Shown piece by piece: positions 33,364 to 41,154 of a stretch of 57,028 nucleotides of DNA; the stretch's first letter is position 1; every line of letters begins with the position of its first letter. This DNA comes from an uncultured Pseudomonadota bacterium. GTDB taxonomy: Bacteria; Pseudomonadota; Gammaproteobacteria; Methylococcales; Methylomonadaceae. Position numbers and translations under genes: made by a program. The stretch lies in contig CAIQDI010000015.1 in NCBI GenBank assembly GCA_903870545.1, positions 1 to 57,028 of the forward strand. Direction: 5' to 3'. The notes beneath the pieces were generated by a model that was not told the DNA's origin, did not search any database, and worked only from the letters and a program-made list of their open reading frames with translations.

Positions 33364-36300
33364 TTAATGTCCCATTCCTCCCATCGTCATTCCCCCTGCG
33401 GCAGGAGCTACTTTAATCGTAAAGGTTTCAGGTTGTGGTGGCGCGTGTTCTTGCGCGTTACCTGTAGGTGAATTCATGAAACTTTTTTCGATTTTATGGC
33501 ATAAATCGCAACCAATAATTTGACCTTTCACGACTTTAATCGTTTTGCCCGTTGAATCGGTTAAATCACGCGCCACTAAGGTTTTCGATAAACGAGTTCC
33601 TAAATGGTCTTTACCATGACAAGCCGCACATTGATCTTCGCCATCGGGACCAGGTTTTTGGGCAAAGTCATTATGCCAACCACCATTGAATTTACCATTA
33701 GCATCTTTAGCGGTATTTTTTGCCGCGCCTGCCGCATCGTAATACCATGATTTATCACCGACAGGGTGCATGCCGTGTGGTCCTGCGAGGAATGCTTTTG
33801 GCGAGCTTGAATCCACAGGCGTTCCGTCACGCACACCTTGACCAACCCCTAAACCACTTGTGCCGCCATCCGTTGCGACTAAGCCCGTTTTGAAATCGTC
33901 TTTGATGTGACAAACCGAACATTCTGCAATGTTGCCGTCATAACCTTGCAACTGTTTAGACGTTTGGTTGTCGTTGGCATTCGGATCTTGGTTTGGCCAA
34001 ATCGAATGTGAACCACCGTGACAGGTTGAACACGTTAATTCTCCGTTTGATCCCGTTCCGTGAACATCGGCACTTTTACGATATAACGTTTGTGAAACTG
34101 GTGCGCCAACGTATTTCGATGCCGAAGGATACGTCGTTATCGTTGGATATTTCCCTGTAACAGGGTCAATCGGTTTCGTTTTATCTTCCGTAATAGTCGG
34201 CGTTTTCGTTTTATCAGGCGCGGTGACTTGTTCAGGACGCGATTCTTTGTTCGGCATTACTGCAAAACGCGCGTTGATGGGGTCGCTACTAAATCCCGTT
34301 TTATCGCCCGCTTTCCACGCTTGACGCATAACGCCCGCACTGAAGTTTTCACCTTTGCCATCTTTGCCAAGATTACCATCGCCAACATGACACGAACCAC
34401 AATTCGGTTCATCTAACCACGGTCTACGGAAGTTAATCGAATCACCCGTAAATGCACCGCCGCCCGTTAAATTGGCGTTGTAATCTTTATTCGGATACAC
34501 GTTACCGACCGCCAACATATCACCGTGGCAACTGTCGCATTTCAAACCAGCCGTGTGATGAATATCGCGGTAACTTTTTTCAGTCGAACCCGTGTGACAT
34601 TTGTTACAACTGTCTTCGTCTGCTACTTTTGCATCGGATTTAACCAACGGTTCGCCATTTTTATCCGCTGGGAATAAATCAGGTCGCCAATTGTTTTTTG
34701 CCGCTTCATAAGTAGGAACCGTTTTAACGGTTAATTCGCCCGTTGTTTTATCCGCTGTCAACGGCACGCCATTATCATCGTTATGTTGAGAATCCCAACC
34801 GCGACCGCCTAACATTTTAGGATGTCCGCGTTCGTCACGAATCAAATCACCTTTTTTATGTGCCAAACCATCTGCACTGACCGCCGCGCTTACGTCTGCT
34901 TTATAAACTTGCATTTTGCCGTGGAAAGCGTGGAAGGCTTTGGAATAATCCGAACGATTGGTTTGGAATGAACGCGCCACAATGCCTACGTCCGCTTTGA
35001 GCGCACTTTGATGATGTCCCGAACAGAAATACATCGGTTGGGCGCGAGATTTACCTTTGTCGTCGGCATACGAATCAGCCACTTGCGTTGAATAACTCGC
35101 TGGCCATGTTTTACCCGTTGCAGGAGTTGGCCCGTAATACACCATGTAATCGTGCATGATTAACGTGTTAAATACCGCCGCTTTTTCTTGTTCAACCCAC
35201 GAATTACCGCCTTCTTCTTCTGGCTCACGGAAATTCAAACGTACTTGTAATTTCCAACCGTCTGCATTCGCAGGTTTTGTGGAACTGGTTTCGCTGGTAG
35301 GTTTGCCAGCTGCATCGACTTTTACCCAACGCGATTCTTTCACCCGATCCGTTCGCAAATTGTTTTGATCGCGAGGAATATAAATCACACTTTTGGGGTC
35401 GTTCACGCCTTTTGCCAAGTTGGTAAAATCAGGATTATCGGCAATTTTATCGTCGAATTTATTATGAATCGCGGGCGGCCAAGGTTTGGTTGCATCCGCA
35501 CCTGGATCAAAACTGCCTGCGCCCGTTGCCGCTCCTGGTTTACCATTCACCGTTAATTCATCAACCGAAACTGGCATCCGCCAAACATCTTCATCGCCTG
35601 CAATTTTGCCTTGAGCATGACATTCACGGCAACGGGTTTCAGACGCGGTGGTATAAACGGTGTCGGTTTTAGCGATGACTTTATCGCCAATTTTCGCTTC
35701 GACACGCATTAACGGATAAGGATTGGTGCGCCCTTGATCGTCAATATCGCTGACGGGAATAAATTGCGCCACAAACGCTTGTTGTTGCGAGTTGTAATTA
35801 AATTTTTGTGGATCGTTTTTCACATACGGATTTTTAATCCCTGGCATTTGGCGCATGTTTTGCGAATTATCTACATAACCGCGCACACCTTGATCGGGTA
35901 AAGCGGGCGCAAAGAATGGCGTAAAACGGTTTTGACCATCAGCGAATGCTGCGCCTACTTCATCAACGCCCGTTTCTTTAGCATAAGGTTGATGAATTCT
36001 GTCCCATTGTTCGGTTTTACGAATCTTCGCTTGGCGGTAATCTTGCCCGTCGATAAAAACGTTTTTCAATGGTTTGCCCGTGGCTACGTCCAATTTACTC
36101 GCGACGGTATCGTAATTGGTGCCGACTTGGTTTTTGTCGAATAAATTTTGACTGGTGGAGTTAATCGAATCTTTACCAGCGGGATCTTTCACGTTTGACG
36201 CTGCCGAATAAACGACACTGACATCTGTGTCTTCAATCAGCGGCGGTTTATGTGCTTTTTTCTGTAAAACCTGCGCGTTTAATGAGTTGTACGGAATCAT

Positions 36301-37131
36301 CACGTTGTACGGCAAATTCACCTGACTGCCGCCTTGCATTCCCATTTCTTCAAATGGCAACACGACATACGCGCCCTCGTCGTTAGTGACTTTGCCTGCT
36401 TTGTCTTTTGGCAATGCTTCGCCCAGTGTTGGCGGCGCGTGTTCAGGTACTTTGCCATTGGGATTCGTGCCTTTCGGTGGAATCACCGACACCATCACAT
36501 CATCCAAACATTGCACGCCATTGTTGGTGACTTTCAATATCACCCGATATTTACCGACAGAGGGGAAAGGATGATTAAAAGTCTGTTGTGCCACATCGTC
36601 GGAACCGTCACTAATTGACCAAACATAATCGCCTTTTACTTTTGTACTTTCAAAAGAAAGCGAACTTCCAGCAAAAATTTCGGTATCGCTGGCGGGTTTG
36701 GTAATCGCACACGCTGGCACCGCCGCCGTTGTCGCGCACGATGTATCAGCACCAACGACGGGAACTAATAATTGCGTTTGTGAATTATTTTTTGGACTGG
36801 TCACTTCAACACGCACCAAACACGGAATGGAGGTTGCGCTCAGTAATTTCATGCTGAATGTGTTGGTGGTGTCGGTGTTCACGGTGTACAACACAATGTG
36901 ATTGGCTGCGTCGAACACGGACACTTTTGCGCCTACGCCAACCGTAACAGCGGTTTTACCCGTCACGATCACTTTACCGCTCATCGTGTCATATTTTGCC
37001 GTCGCTGTGACGGGTGCGACAGCGGCTTGAGTCAATGGCGGAATCATTGCCATCGCCGTCACAATCGGCGCAAGCGCAATCAAACCGAGTCTGCGCTTTT
37101 GCCGATGTGGCGGCATTTGTTTATCGAGCAT
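33364..37131 (-). CDS. octahaem surface c-type cytochrome with PKD domain
   Basis: 1255 residues with a strong AGGAGG site in front. A basic start and hydrophobic signal (LGLIALAPIVTAMAMIPPL), then an N-terminal beta domain, a PKD-like domain (about 140-240), a large central part without haem sites, and eight CXXCH motifs at about residues 501, 842, 865, 911, 1034, 1071, 1168 and 1208. The first is isolated; the other seven cluster in the last third. A CSGHH stretch near 720 is not a haem site. It ends in a Gly/Met-rich tail. The layout fits a periplasmic or surface electron carrier. The exact family is not recognised. Confidence 0.85.
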   Translation of the reverse strand: MLDKQMPPHRQKRRLGLIALAPIVTAMAMIPPLTQAAVAPVTATAKYDTMSGKVIVTGKTAVTVGVGAKVSVFDAANHIVLYTVNTDTTNTFSMKLLSATSIPCLVRVEVTSPKNNSQTQLLVPVVGADTSCATTAAVPACAITKPASDTEIFAGSSLSFESTKVKGDYVWSISDGSDDVAQQTFNHPFPSVGKYRVILKVTNNGVQCLDDVMVSVIPPKGTNPNGKVPEHAPPTLGEALPKDKAGKVTNDEGAYVVLPFEEMGMQGGSQVNLPYNVMIPYNSLNAQVLQKKAHKPPLIEDTDVSVVYSAASNVKDPAGKDSINSTSQNLFDKNQVGTNYDTVASKLDVATGKPLKNVFIDGQDYRQAKIRKTEQWDRIHQPYAKETGVDEVGAAFADGQNRFTPFFAPALPDQGVRGYVDNSQNMRQMPGIKNPYVKNDPQKFNYNSQQQAFVAQFIPVSDIDDQGRTNPYPLMRVEAKIGDKVIAKTDTVYTTASETRCRECHAQGKIAGDEDVWRMPVSVDELTVNGKPGAATGAGSFDPGADATKPWPPAIHNKFDDKIADNPDFTNLAKGVNDPKSVIYIPRDQNNLRTDRVKESRWVKVDAAGKPTSETSSTKPANADGWKLQVRLNFREPEEEGGNSWVEQEKAAVFNTLIMHDYMVYYGPTPATGKTWPASYSTQVADSYADDKGKSRAQPMYFCSGHHQSALKADVGIVARSFQTNRSDYSKAFHAFHGKMQVYKADVSAAVSADGLAHKKGDLIRDERGHPKMLGGRGWDSQHNDDNGVPLTADKTTGELTVKTVPTYEAAKNNWRPDLFPADKNGEPLVKSDAKVADEDSCNKCHTGSTEKSYRDIHHTAGLKCDSCHGDMLAVGNVYPNKDYNANLTGGGAFTGDSINFRRPWLDEPNCGSCHVGDGNLGKDGKGENFSAGVMRQAWKAGDKTGFSSDPINARFAVMPNKESRPEQVTAPDKTKTPTITEDKTKPIDPVTGKYPTITTYPSASKYVGAPVSQTLYRKSADVHGTGSNGELTCSTCHGGSHSIWPNQDPNANDNQTSKQLQGYDGNIAECSVCHIKDDFKTGLVATDGGTSGLGVGQGVRDGTPVDSSSPKAFLAGPHGMHPVGDKSWYYDAAGAAKNTAKDANGKFNGGWHNDFAQKPGPDGEDQCAACHGKDHLGTRLSKTLVARDLTDSTGKTIKVVKGQIIGCDLCHKIEKSFMNSPTGNAQEHAPPQPETFTIKVAPAAGGMTMGGMGH

Positions 37132-37386: not shown

Positions 37387-38334
37387 CTATTTTTCTGAAA
37401 TAGCGTTGAAATTATTTAGTTTTTTAGGCGTTACATTGATAATGCGTCCTTCAGCATCGAATTCGGCAACCATTTGAGAATCGCGTTGTTTCAAATAATC
37501 TTCAACCAATGGCTTGACCAGTTTTTTATTTTTTAAACTCCATGTGTTACTAATGAATCCTTCAATAATCATTCCATAAACACACGCTTCTATCGATTCC
37601 ATGACGGCCATTTGTGGCGGTTCATTACTTGAAACGCCCGATTCGATTTGCAACAATCGTTTGAACGCAATATAGCGAAATAATCCCGAATCCAATTCTA
37701 ATGAAAGAATGGTTTTTTTCGCATCGACTTGGGTTAGAATGCCGCCATTTTTCACTGATACCGCGCGTAACATACTGGTTACGGTGTCACGTCTAAATTC
37801 ACTCGATCCGCCAACGCCCAAATAATAACCACCCATTCCACCTGTTAATAAGTTGCTTTCATAAGAAATAATACCGCCTTCCAATAAAATGGGTGCGTAA
37901 ATTAAGGGCGGCAGGCTCGGAATTTGAGATTCATTTTTTTTATCGCCAGCGTACATTTCGCGCGTTTGCTGAATAATTTTGCGTTCATTCATCAAATCGG
38001 TCAGTCCTTCTCTTTCGACAACGGTGAACCATTTTCCATTTCCCGCTTCCATCAAAGCACGAGTTAGCATCGATGTTGCGCCTTGTGTCACCGCCGTAGA
38101 ATACTGCATCAACGTATCGCTACCTTTATATTGCCCTGTTTGATCCCTAAATTTATAAACTGCGACGATAATGGGCTGTGGTGGCGGCGGCAATGAACGC
38201 AATAAATCAGACATTCCTGAATGATAATCTGTGCTAGCTTTGTCGGAACTAATTGGTTTAAAAGCACCCGAACAAGAAATTAAAAATACGGTTGCCAATA
38301 AACTGTTCAGTAATTTGAAAATTAAGTGATTCAT
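37387..38334 (-). CDS. csgG: curli secretion channel CsgG
   Basis: 315 residues (E. coli 277). A lipoprotein signal with lipobox ISC at about 19-21, then the CsgG core (IIVAVYKFRDQTGQYK, ALMEAGNGKWFTVVEREGL, APILLEGGIISYESN). It forms the nonameric outer-membrane channel that exports curlin. Extra length is mainly C-terminal. It overlaps csgF by ATGA and ends the operon before a terminator. Confidence 0.95.
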   Translation of the reverse strand: MNHLIFKLLNSLLATVFLISCSGAFKPISSDKASTDYHSGMSDLLRSLPPPPQPIIVAVYKFRDQTGQYKGSDTLMQYSTAVTQGATSMLTRALMEAGNGKWFTVVEREGLTDLMNERKIIQQTREMYAGDKKNESQIPSLPPLIYAPILLEGGIISYESNLLTGGMGGYYLGVGGSSEFRRDTVTSMLRAVSVKNGGILTQVDAKKTILSLELDSGLFRYIAFKRLLQIESGVSSNEPPQMAVMESIEACVYGMIIEGFISNTWSLKNKKLVKPLVEDYLKQRDSQMVAEFDAEGRIINVTPKKLNNFNAISEK

Positions 38335-38774
38335 GGCTTTGTTACCGTACTTGGAACAACTAACGTTGTACTAGTGAGACCGTCTGTAATCGAAATGCTG
38401 AGATTGCCATCGGTTGCTGTATCGCCCACTTTGACTGAAAAATCACTTTGACCATCGTTATTTAAATCAAAATTAAGATCCGTTCCCAATTTGACATTGC
38501 CGTTCGTATCGAATAATCCGTCGGTGGTTGAGGTAGCAAGATGGTTTAAAATAGCGCGTTGTAAATTATCTTTAAATGTTTCAATTTGCGTTTTAGCTGT
38601 TGTCACTACAACAGGTGCTTTAAAACTATTTAGAGCATCGGCTTGATTCATTAAAAAAGTTCCATTTCCGACATTGCCACCAAAATTGGGATTGGTGAAA
38701 TGAAACACTAGTTCTGTTGCCATCACTGCTCCAGACAACAACAATAATTGGCACGCAATCAATAAACGTATCAT
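38331..38774 (-). CDS. csgF: curli assembly factor CsgF
   Basis: 147 residues from MIRLLIACQLLLLSG (GAGG site; the TTG upstream is rejected). The signal ends at VMA, then the CsgF hallmark FHFTNPNFGGN. CsgF plugs into CsgG at the surface and couples nucleation to secretion. Its signal-peptide coding segment was copied into the chimeric curlin gene upstream (39496-39852). Confidence 0.93.
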   Translation of the reverse strand: MIRLLIACQLLLLSGAVMATELVFHFTNPNFGGNVGNGTFLMNQADALNSFKAPVVVTTAKTQIETFKDNLQRAILNHLATSTTDGLFDTNGNVKLGTDLNFDLNNDGQSDFSVKVGDTATDGNLSISITDGLTSTTLVVPSTVTKP

Positions 38775-38782
38775 AAAAAACC

Positions 38783-39130
38783 TCAATAAATGTCTTTGTG
38801 TTGTTGCAAATACGATTTCAATGTGTCACGCGCGGCTTGCGCTTTTTCTTCTATTCCACTGGCACGAATTCCTACACGATCTTGAAATACAGTGTTTTCA
38901 TTCACGTCTATCCAAATCACATTACCCGCGAAAGGATCAAAACGTTCATGAACGGTAATCGTGCCGATTTGTTTAGAAGCGTCCCAATCATTTACGAATT
39001 CTTCGTAAAATAAATGTCCCACACGCGACAACGTTTCATCGATGACCAACCCGCCAATTTCAAAATTGGGTTCAATCGCAACAGCGACGGGTGCAATCAA
39101 ACATAAAGCAATAACCGTGCAAAGTTTCAT
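38783..39130 (-). CDS. csgE: curli assembly factor CsgE
   Basis: 115 residues. Signal ends near VAVA; the CsgE body follows (GLVIDETLSRVGHLFYEEF, NVIWIDVNENTVFQD). CsgE caps the periplasmic side of CsgG and delivers curlin. ATGA overlap with the curlin gene before it. A decayed second copy lies at 39855-40206. Confidence 0.92.
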   Translation of the reverse strand: MKLCTVIALCLIAPVAVAIEPNFEIGGLVIDETLSRVGHLFYEEFVNDWDASKQIGTITVHERFDPFAGNVIWIDVNENTVFQDRVGIRASGIEEKAQAARDTLKSYLQQHKDIY

Positions 39131-39456
39131 CGGTTTTTTTGACGTATCACAACATTATTAGAATTTCCGGTTTGCGAGACGCTGCTTTCATTACATTCAC
39201 CGGTTTGACTGATGCTGGCGTGATTATCTTGTCCCGTTTGTTTTAACGTCAGCGTGTTGTCGTTGCCATTTTGCTCGACAACTTTTTCATTATTTTGACC
39301 GTGTTGTTCAATAAATTGACGGTTGCCCTGATTATCTTTTTGTATTGTTGTCATTTGAGTTTTTGACGGCAAACAAGCCGCGTGTGAAATGGAAAGTGTA
39401 AATCCACTTAAAATAATTGAGGTGAATAAAATATAAAAAAATTGATGACGAGCCAT
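39127..39456 (-). CDS. csgB: curlin repeat protein, CsgB/CsgA-like
   Basis: 109 residues. A signal peptide precedes about four curlin-type repeats of 17-22 residues with spaced Gln/Asn/Ser (VEQNGNDNTLTLKQTGQDN, ISQTGECNESSVSQTGNSNN). Curlin repeats stack as beta-loop-beta in the amyloid fibre. Nucleator (CsgB) is favoured by the short length and basic end (RQKNR), but major subunit is possible. A pseudogene copy lies at 40203-40425. Confidence 0.8.
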   Translation of the reverse strand: MARHQFFYILFTSIILSGFTLSISHAACLPSKTQMTTIQKDNQGNRQFIEQHGQNNEKVVEQNGNDNTLTLKQTGQDNHASISQTGECNESSVSQTGNSNNVVIRQKNR

Positions 39457-39495
39457 TGAATTCGATAATCTTTAGTTGATTTAACGTTAAAAAAT

Positions 39496-39852
39496 TTATT
39501 GCGACACGGTGGAAATGTTGTTGGAACCAATTTGTCTAATAACAACAGAACCACTATCGCCGGTCACGGTTGCCTCATTGAAATTGCCTCTTTGATAAAC
39601 ACTAAATGAATTGGTATCAGCGGTGCTATTCACAACATTTTGATTGCCTATATTGCCGTTGACAATGTCGTTATCCGAACTAGTTGCAGTAATAGTGGCA
39701 ATTTTATTCGAATCAATTTGAGAAAGGGTGACGCTATTGTCAGTGTTATTGATTTGAGCGATTACAGAAATATCTTCGACCGTGCGACTACTATTAGCCA
39801 TGACCGTTCCAGACAAAAAGCATAGTTGACATGTAATCAATAAACGAATCAT
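39496..39852 (-). CDS. chimeric curlin: csgF signal peptide joined to curlin body
   Basis: 118 residues. Residues 1-20 (MIRLLITCQLCFLSGTVMA) match the CsgF signal peptide almost exactly, with the same upstream bases as csgF. From about residue 21 (NSSRTVEDIS) it matches the curlin at 40461-40841. The join falls at the ATGGC(A/T)A stretch present in both parents. It is still a plausible secreted curlin with repeats such as IDSNKIATI, SFSVYQRGNFNEATV and VVIRQIGSNNISTVSQ. It is the product of a tandem duplication. Confidence 0.85.
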   Translation of the reverse strand: MIRLLITCQLCFLSGTVMANSSRTVEDISVIAQINNTDNSVTLSQIDSNKIATITATSSDNDIVNGNIGNQNVVNSTADTNSFSVYQRGNFNEATVTGDSGSVVIRQIGSNNISTVSQ

Positions 39853-39854
39853 AA

Positions 39855-40206
39855 ATAAACCTAAAATAAATGTCTTTGTGTTGCTGTAAATACGATTTCA
39901 ATGCGTTAGGCGTGGCTTGCGCTTTTTCTTCTATTGCACTGACACGAATTCCCACACGATTTTGAAATACGGTATTTTCATTCGCGTCTATCCAAATCAC
40001 ATTGCCTGCGAAAAAACCAAAACGTTCATGAATCGTAATCGTGTCGACTTGTTTAATTGTATTCCAATCGTTGACGAAAATGAATGTCCCACACGCGACA
40101 GCTTTTCATCGATAACCAACCCAACCCGCCAATTTCAAAATTTAGGTTCAATCGCAAGAGCGACGGGTGCAATCAAACATAAAGCAATAATCGTGCAAAG
40201 TTTCAT
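39855..40206 (-). pseudogene. csgE: decayed csgE copy
   Basis: The ATG at 40206 and most of the sequence match csgE closely, but several small indels break the frame: about 14 bases missing near 40080, a short duplication around 40120 (AACCC) and changes near 40140. The 3' half (MIWIDANENTVFQNRVGIR on) stays readable but lost its stop and runs on into the chimeric curlin start region. Confidence 0.85.
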
Positions 40207-40425
40207 CGGTTTTTTTGACGTATCACAACATTATTAGAATTTCCGGTTTGCGAGACGCTGCTTTCATGACATTCACCGGTTTGACTGATGCTGGCGTGAT
40301 TATTTTGACCGTGTTGTTCAATAAATTGACGATTGCCCTGATTATCTTTTGAAGTCGTTGTGATTGGGGTTTTTGACGGCAAACAAGTTGCGTGTGAAAT
40401 GGAAAGTGTAAATCCACTTAAAATA
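40203..40425 (-). pseudogene. csgB: decayed csgB copy
   Basis: Matches the csgB at 39127-39456, but exactly 66 bases (22 codons, one curlin repeat unit) are missing between GATTAT-type direct repeats, and the 5' signal region with the start codon is deleted, with an in-frame TAA upstream. It keeps the ATGA overlap with the csgE pseudogene. Confidence 0.82.
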
Positions 40426-40460
40426 TTCGATAATTTTTAGTTGATTTAACGTTAAAAAAT

Positions 40461-40841
40461 TTATTGCGACACGGTGGAAATGTTGTTGAAGCCAATTTGC
40501 CTAATAACAACTGAACCACTATAGCCCGTCACGGTCGCCTCATTCATATCGCCTCTTTGATAGATGCTAAATGAATTGGTATCTGTGCTATTCACCGTAT
40601 TTTCATTACCTATTTGAGAAATGGTAGTTTTATTGCCGTTAACAGTGTCAACATCGTTTTTCGAGCCAATTTGAGTAATAGTGGCAATTTTATTCGAATC
40701 GATTTGAGAAAGGGTGACATCATTGTCAGTGTTATTGATTTGAGTAATCTCGGAAATATCTTCGACAATGTAACTACTAGAAGTTGCCATTATCGTCATC
40801 AAAAAAGGTAAATACCATATAATTGAATTACGGGTTTTCAT
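40461..40841 (-). CDS. curlin repeat protein (undamaged upstream copy)
   Basis: 126 residues. A short signal-like N-terminus (NSIIWYLPFLMTIMA) is followed by curlin repeats (EITQINNTDNDVTLSQI, ATITQIGSKNDVDTV, TISQIGNENTVNS, SFSIYQRGDMNEATV). It is the first gene of the curli operon and the donor of the body of the chimeric curlin. Its ATGGCAAC at codon position about 18 is the microhomology used in the duplication. Confidence 0.8.
   Translation of the reverse strand: MKTRNSIIWYLPFLMTIMATSSSYIVEDISEITQINNTDNDVTLSQIDSNKIATITQIGSKNDVDTVNGNKTTISQIGNENTVNSTDTNSFSIYQRGDMNEATVTGYSGSVVIRQIGFNNISTVSQ

Positions 40842-41077: not shown

Positions 41078-41154
<77 letters not shown>

Follow-up and report, generated by a model that had tools for sequence, protein, structure and literature searches.

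According to the available part of the account by Dueholm et al. (2012; PMC3521004), some genera of Gammaproteobacteria carry all csg genes except csgD in one single-direction operon of the csgBAEFG type, and other genera have several copies of csgA or csgB per genome. For the csgBAEFG-type operons, that part describes neither a duplicated csgB-csgE block nor an exchange of signal sequences, both of which we find in the locus analyzed here, and our search of the open-access literature returned nothing on point for such a case. The operons of Methylobacter marinus A45 and Crenothrix sp. D3 (L016 and L017) resemble this locus in comprising a curlin gene, csgA, csgB, csgE, csgF, and csgG, but have a single csgE and a single csgF and no chimeric gene. 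We regard the case as an instructive variation on the known curli system, not as a separate system.

The available parts of two reports on Escherichia coli (PMC6957492, PMC7304575) describe the N-terminal residues of CsgF as lining the CsgG channel. Residue matches in our own alignments indicate that the CsgF of our locus, and also a second fusion protein described below, keep the N-terminal NPNFGG stretch as in E. coli CsgF. The chimeric curlin, unlike E. coli CsgF, has the signal only and nothing of the mature protein.

Layout of the operon

The window, i.e., the whole stretch of 57,028 nucleotides that was analyzed, corresponds to contig C15 in a draft genome that totals 2,681,207 bases on 39 contigs and comes from a bacterium related to methane oxidizers; M. 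marinus and Crenothrix sp. D3 are among its named relatives. All curli genes of the window lie on the minus strand. The order begins with curA (40461..40841), which encodes a short CsgA-type curlin of 126 aa that has an apparent signal peptide of its own (PF07012, 2.3e-9, 37.5 bits), and continues with a csgB pseudogene (40203..40426) that is missing its start region and 22 codons and still matches PF07012 over the remaining frame (2.8e-8). The csgE pseudogene that follows (39866..40206) contains a frameshift with an early stop, further changes of +5 and -10, and a lost stop codon; tblastn with the intact CsgE recovers it in two pieces with 77% identity. Downstream lie the chimeric curlin gene of 118 aa (39496..39852; PF07012, 1e-5), intact csgB (39127..39456, 109 aa; PF07012, 9.9e-14), intact csgE (38783..39130, 115 aa; PF10627, 4.2e-21), intact csgF (38331..38774; PF10614, 9.9e-24 in a scan that left out the first codon; CsgF in the PDB, 1.4e-11), and intact csgG (37387..38334, 315 aa; PF03783, 7.2e-50). 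The locus thus has the components expected of a curli (type VIII secretion) operon: the pore gene csgG, the accessory genes csgE and csgF, both above the Pfam cut-off, and subunits with curlin repeats (PF07012, above the cut-off in curA, the chimera, and csgB). Together with the alignment of the duplicated blocks, these assignments bear out the gene order that had been proposed from the sequence in an initial annotation: a curlin, two pseudogenes, a chimera, and then csgB-csgE-csgF-csgG.

A gene for tRNA-Pro (GGG) lies on the plus strand at 41078-41154, just upstream of the operon; in the congeners G007 and G003, the tRNA-Pro side is occupied by other genes. A scan gave 13 promoter-like sites where 13.7 are expected, i.e., a chance-level number, and four terminators where 3.6 are expected. 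Two of the promoter-like sites, at 39890-39863 and 39876-39848, are located directly upstream of the chimera, the overall number being at chance.

A signal sequence exchanged at the apparent cleavage site

The chimera opens with a CsgF leader and signal (39852-39796) and continues as a curlin. To the left of the switch, it matches csgF at 46 of 60 bases and curA at only 16, whereas to the right it matches curA at 44 of 54 bases, after a three-base step, and csgF at 17 at best. The proposed CsgF-signal/curlin chimera is therefore real, and because this flanking similarity by itself reveals the switch, its reality does not depend on the short homology that had been placed at the junction. That homology, ATGGCAAC, does occur on the minus strand both in csgF (38723-38716) and in curA (40790-40783), at the apparent signal-peptide end in each case. 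At the switch, the chimera reads ATGGCTAA; only ATGGC is common to the chimera, csgF, and curA. It occupies 39797..39801, where the switch had been predicted, and is followed by TAA, so that five of the eight bases of ATGGCAAC are kept unbroken in the chimera.

The chance of at least 8 matching bases at a fixed junction is about 1.7e-4, and that of at least 5 about 6e-3. Altogether, csgF and curA have eight 8-mers in common, compared with a mean of 4.7 in single-base shuffles. Since both sites encode the end of a signal peptide, the match is under constraint, and the parental identity at ATGGCAAC may stem in part from requirements that all signal ends have in common. ATGGC encodes M-A at the apparent signal ends, which read VMA-T in CsgF, IMA-T in curA, and VMA-N in the chimera; these ends were read by eye from the translations, aided by alignment with E. 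coli CsgF. Likewise by eye, the N-terminus of the chimera shows a charged start, a hydrophobic stretch, and the M-A end. With the switch at the M-A signal end, no CsgF residue is expected in the mature chimera, and the predicted event is a swap of signals. In agreement with this, the alignment shows that csgF similarity ends at the signal end and that the CsgG-binding N-terminus of mature CsgF is not present in the chimera.

Of the two curlin genes, curA looks parental and the chimera derived, because curA starts with MKTR like the csgA gene on another contig, C31, and aligns over residues 30-126 with the C-terminal end of the CsgA encoded there.

Tandem duplication and uneven divergence of the two blocks

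We aligned the upstream block A, from the body of curA to the signal of the chimera, with the downstream block B, from the body of the chimera to the signal of csgF. The blocks are alignable, with 850 of 967 ungapped columns identical and 117 differing, which supports the tandem duplication that had been postulated. Identity is uneven along the repeat, amounting to 83.5% in the curlin body, 97.1% in the curlin-csgB spacer, 94.5% in csgB, 88.5% in csgE, and 78% in the csgE-csgF gap with the signal. A tract of unusually high identity at 39034..39339 (minus strand) has 6 mismatches over 240 columns, a scan-statistic value that none of 200 permutations attained, and the longest stretch without any mismatch extends over 76 columns (p = 0.0044, 5000 permutations). 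At the other extreme, the signal pair, comprising 18 codons, has a dS of 0.95 compared with 0.14-0.32 in the other pairs of the window; its excess of synonymous changes gives Fisher p = 0.033 against csgE and p = 0.011 against the pooled rest. The uneven identity points to probable gene conversion in the central part of the repeat; alternatively, selection may have been uneven, or the signal part may have split earlier.

The genome is a draft in 39 contigs and we have seen no second assembly of the species, which could make one think of an assembly artefact. Reads from a single locus that had been joined wrongly would give almost identical copies, whereas these two have 117 differences in 967 columns and carry separate indels, and we consider an artefact extremely improbable.

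Of the 237 genomes of the family, 13 have CsgF, our genome included, as do 3 of the 18 genomes of the genus. We examined 15 other csgE-csgF loci, 13 of them from the 12 other CsgF-bearing genomes of the family and two (L019 and L021) from the scan of named genomes alone, and each was searched with its own CsgE and CsgF at E <0.05. The same search applied to the window as a positive control detects two pieces of the upstream csgE as well as the csgF signal within the chimera. In 14 of the 15 other loci it found no further copy of csgE or csgF, although L020 and L050 comprise less than 900 bases before csgE, so that more distant copies would be missed there; the fifteenth, L019, gave one weak csgF match (21% identity, E = 0.039) within its curlin genes. 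The unduplicated order expected among relatives is accordingly what we observe. Two of the relatives, G107 (L044 2968-1661) and G109 (L045 1932-658), have a large curlin gene between csgE and csgF.

A third copy with a different fusion

A further copy lies on contig C33 (L039, about 9568-8650, minus strand). In it, the decayed remains of a csgB tail and of csgE precede a 211-codon open frame (L039 9285-8650, C33:183649-184284) that represents a second, different CsgF-curlin fusion. This frame joins a CsgF signal, the NPNFGG N-terminus, and a large part of the CsgF body, interrupted by an internal gap, to csgA-type repeats in frame. Searched against solved structures, it matches CsgF chains over residues 7-44 (E = 0.002) and curlin (2e-9). 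In the 237 genomes, nine have matches to the fusion. Among the listed matches outside its own genome no second fusion of this type was seen, and those that were placed fall in csgF or curlin frames; one of them spans the fusion point (query 59-175) but sits in Crenothrix csgA.

On either side of the C33 curli remnant lies a copy of a direct repeat, about 85 bases long (L039 8441-8525 and 9663-9747), which corresponds to the 3' end of a neighboring gene of 441 aa that appears phosphoesterase-like by eye. G010 has one copy of this repeat, on a contig that extends only about 170 bases past the gene.

Order of events

To order the three copies, we calculated trees for csgE with the start of csgF, using distant outgroups and five overlapping, non-independent alignments, the fifth of which covers the 3' part only. 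C33 groups with the upstream block A with ultrafast bootstrap values of 95, 99, 100, and 99, and of 90 in the 3'-only alignment. A grouping of A with B is rejected by the AU test in four of the five alignments (p = 0.049, 0.017, 0.006, and 0.0096; 3'-only, 0.109). In the same order, the stricter SH test gives p = 0.081, 0.041, 0.029, and 0.042, and 0.104 for the 3'-only alignment, and fails to reject A+B in two of the five (0.081 and 3'-only). Among unpolarized states, C33 agrees with the intact copy alone at 29 sites and with the upstream copy alone at 13, as a fast-evolving upstream lineage would give; only a small number of sites could be polarized, and the shared-derived ones number two for A+C33, one for B+C33, and one for A+B.

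The simplest course of events would be a single tandem duplication with its ends in curA and csgF at ATGGCAAC, which would have made the chimera directly and left C33 as an independent csgE-csgF copy. It needs the fewest steps and agrees with the homology extending from junction to junction and with the short homology at both ends; moreover, neither the 3'-only alignment nor, in two of the five runs, the SH test rejects it. Against it stand the four overlapping alignments that join C33 to the upstream block with AU p values below 0.05 for A+B, and we hold this course to be possible but rather doubtful. If C33 does group with block A, then, as C33 keeps the csgF body, block A should once have had a csgF body too; and having once held more of csgF than the signal, it would have acquired its present junction by a later deletion. 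A history in two steps, a larger duplication and then a deletion, is the reading towards which we lean, if only slightly, and these sequence comparisons favor it moderately over the single event. The initial annotation had held that one event explains the whole order: the tandem duplication stands, whereas its derivation from a single event is possible but not favored given the position of C33. The two-step order, like the gene conversion, is supported but not certain.

In the two-step history, a tandem duplication of the curli operon would initially have covered more of csgF. A deletion at short homology would then have joined the csgF signal sequence to the body of the neighboring curlin, yielding a curlin of 118 aa with CsgF leader and signal. 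Cleaved at the apparent signal-peptidase site, the mature protein would be a plain curlin with a curlin N-terminus; if translated, it would be exported through Sec and then CsgG, like curA, and incorporated into fibers. The upstream csgB and csgE, both now broken, would have become dispensable, and the middle of the repeat bears signs of what may be gene conversion.

Decay of the upstream genes and state of the chimera

The upstream csgB has a 45-bp gap at its start region and lacks a further 66 bp, equal to 22 codons that, in one alignment, are present in the intact copy and in the csgB genes of all five relatives. The loss of 22 codons that the initial annotation had noted in csgB is thus confirmed. 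In the upstream csgE, a +1 change with an early stop is followed by +5 and -10. The initial annotation was correct in that the upstream csgB and csgE have decayed through such gaps and frameshifts, but not in calling them older, since both members of a tandem pair have the same age. The two csgE copies differ at 33 codons, 10 of which could not be assigned to a lineage; the upstream lineage has 13 nonsynonymous and 3 synonymous changes, compared with 2 and 5 on the intact one (Fisher p = 0.026). Five of six pairs compared have a dN/dS of 0.34-0.37, the pseudogene pairs and the curA-chimera pair (0.35) alike, and the short signal pair has 0.14, so that constraint persisted for a while after the duplication. 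As a test of whether the chimera is used, dN/dS was rejected, because the pseudogene pairs give the same value.

The 118-aa frame of the chimera is open, as had been reported, and it departs from curA by four net differences in length, each of them a multiple of three. With 25.8 bits, it passes the curated PF07012 cut-off of 20.7 bits for curlin repeats; it has lost residues of one repeat and scores below curA (25.8 compared with 37.5 bits). The AlphaFold2 model of the chimera, run with seven other curlins, reached a pLDDT of 46 and is uninformative about the beta-solenoid fold.

Under either history, the chimera might be a functionless by-product, a frame not yet broken among decaying copies. 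The neighboring csgB and csgE are broken, the chimera itself has the lower PF07012 score and the lost residues, the main csgA is located elsewhere, on C31, and the C33 copy has decayed, all of which fits such a view. Conversely, the length differences of the chimera are multiples of three while those of the csgE pseudogene (+1, +5, -10) are not, and its dN/dS is 0.35, a value that the pseudogene pairs equal. We see the by-product as a serious possibility that falls somewhat short of being probable.

Genomic context

The main csgA gene, which encodes 298 aa counted from MKTR, lies with a further curlin gene on C31 (L040 9074-7596), apart from csgB-csgG. In the four congeners G010, G014, G011, and G005, which have no curli genes at this site, two genes of 883 and 1255 aa, both multihaem-cytochrome-like as read by eye, are divergent neighbors with about 320-330 bases between their starts; at the loci of four more congeners, G004, G001, G007, and G012, that contain the 1255-aa gene, the 883-aa gene was not seen within the available stretch. 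In our genome, the 1255-aa gene follows csgG on C15 (window 33364-37131), and the 883-aa gene adjoins the curlin and csgA genes on C31 (L040 9405-12056). On the simplest reading, the two genes once flanked a complete operon that was later split by rearrangement.

CsgE, CsgF, and CsgG of the window are 61, 52, and 70% identical to those of M. marinus and 55, 50, and 71% identical to those of Crenothrix. The corresponding values for the congener G013 are 39, 42, and 63%, and for G006 they are 37% for CsgE and 42% for CsgF, its broken csgG being left out. Horizontal transfer of the operon is possible, and the unrooted tree does not settle the matter.

Implications

That the joining of CsgF to curlin is recurrent in this genome and that the C33 product is, or recently was, a working pore-tethered curlin strikes us as quite unlikely. 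If true, the CsgG-binding N-terminus of this fusion would hold a fiber seed at the mouth of the channel, and one chain would do the work of both CsgF and the nucleator. The fusion also suggests a testable design, a fiber subunit anchored in its own pore.

The chimera of the window offers a clear natural example of a signal-sequence exchange at about the cleavage site, with duplication and short homology as the probable route and a plain curlin as the predicted mature protein. The signal ends of genes within one operon may be favorable places for such swaps. The curli genes of this bacterium are scattered over three contigs, yet one complete csgB-csgE-csgF-csgG set survives.
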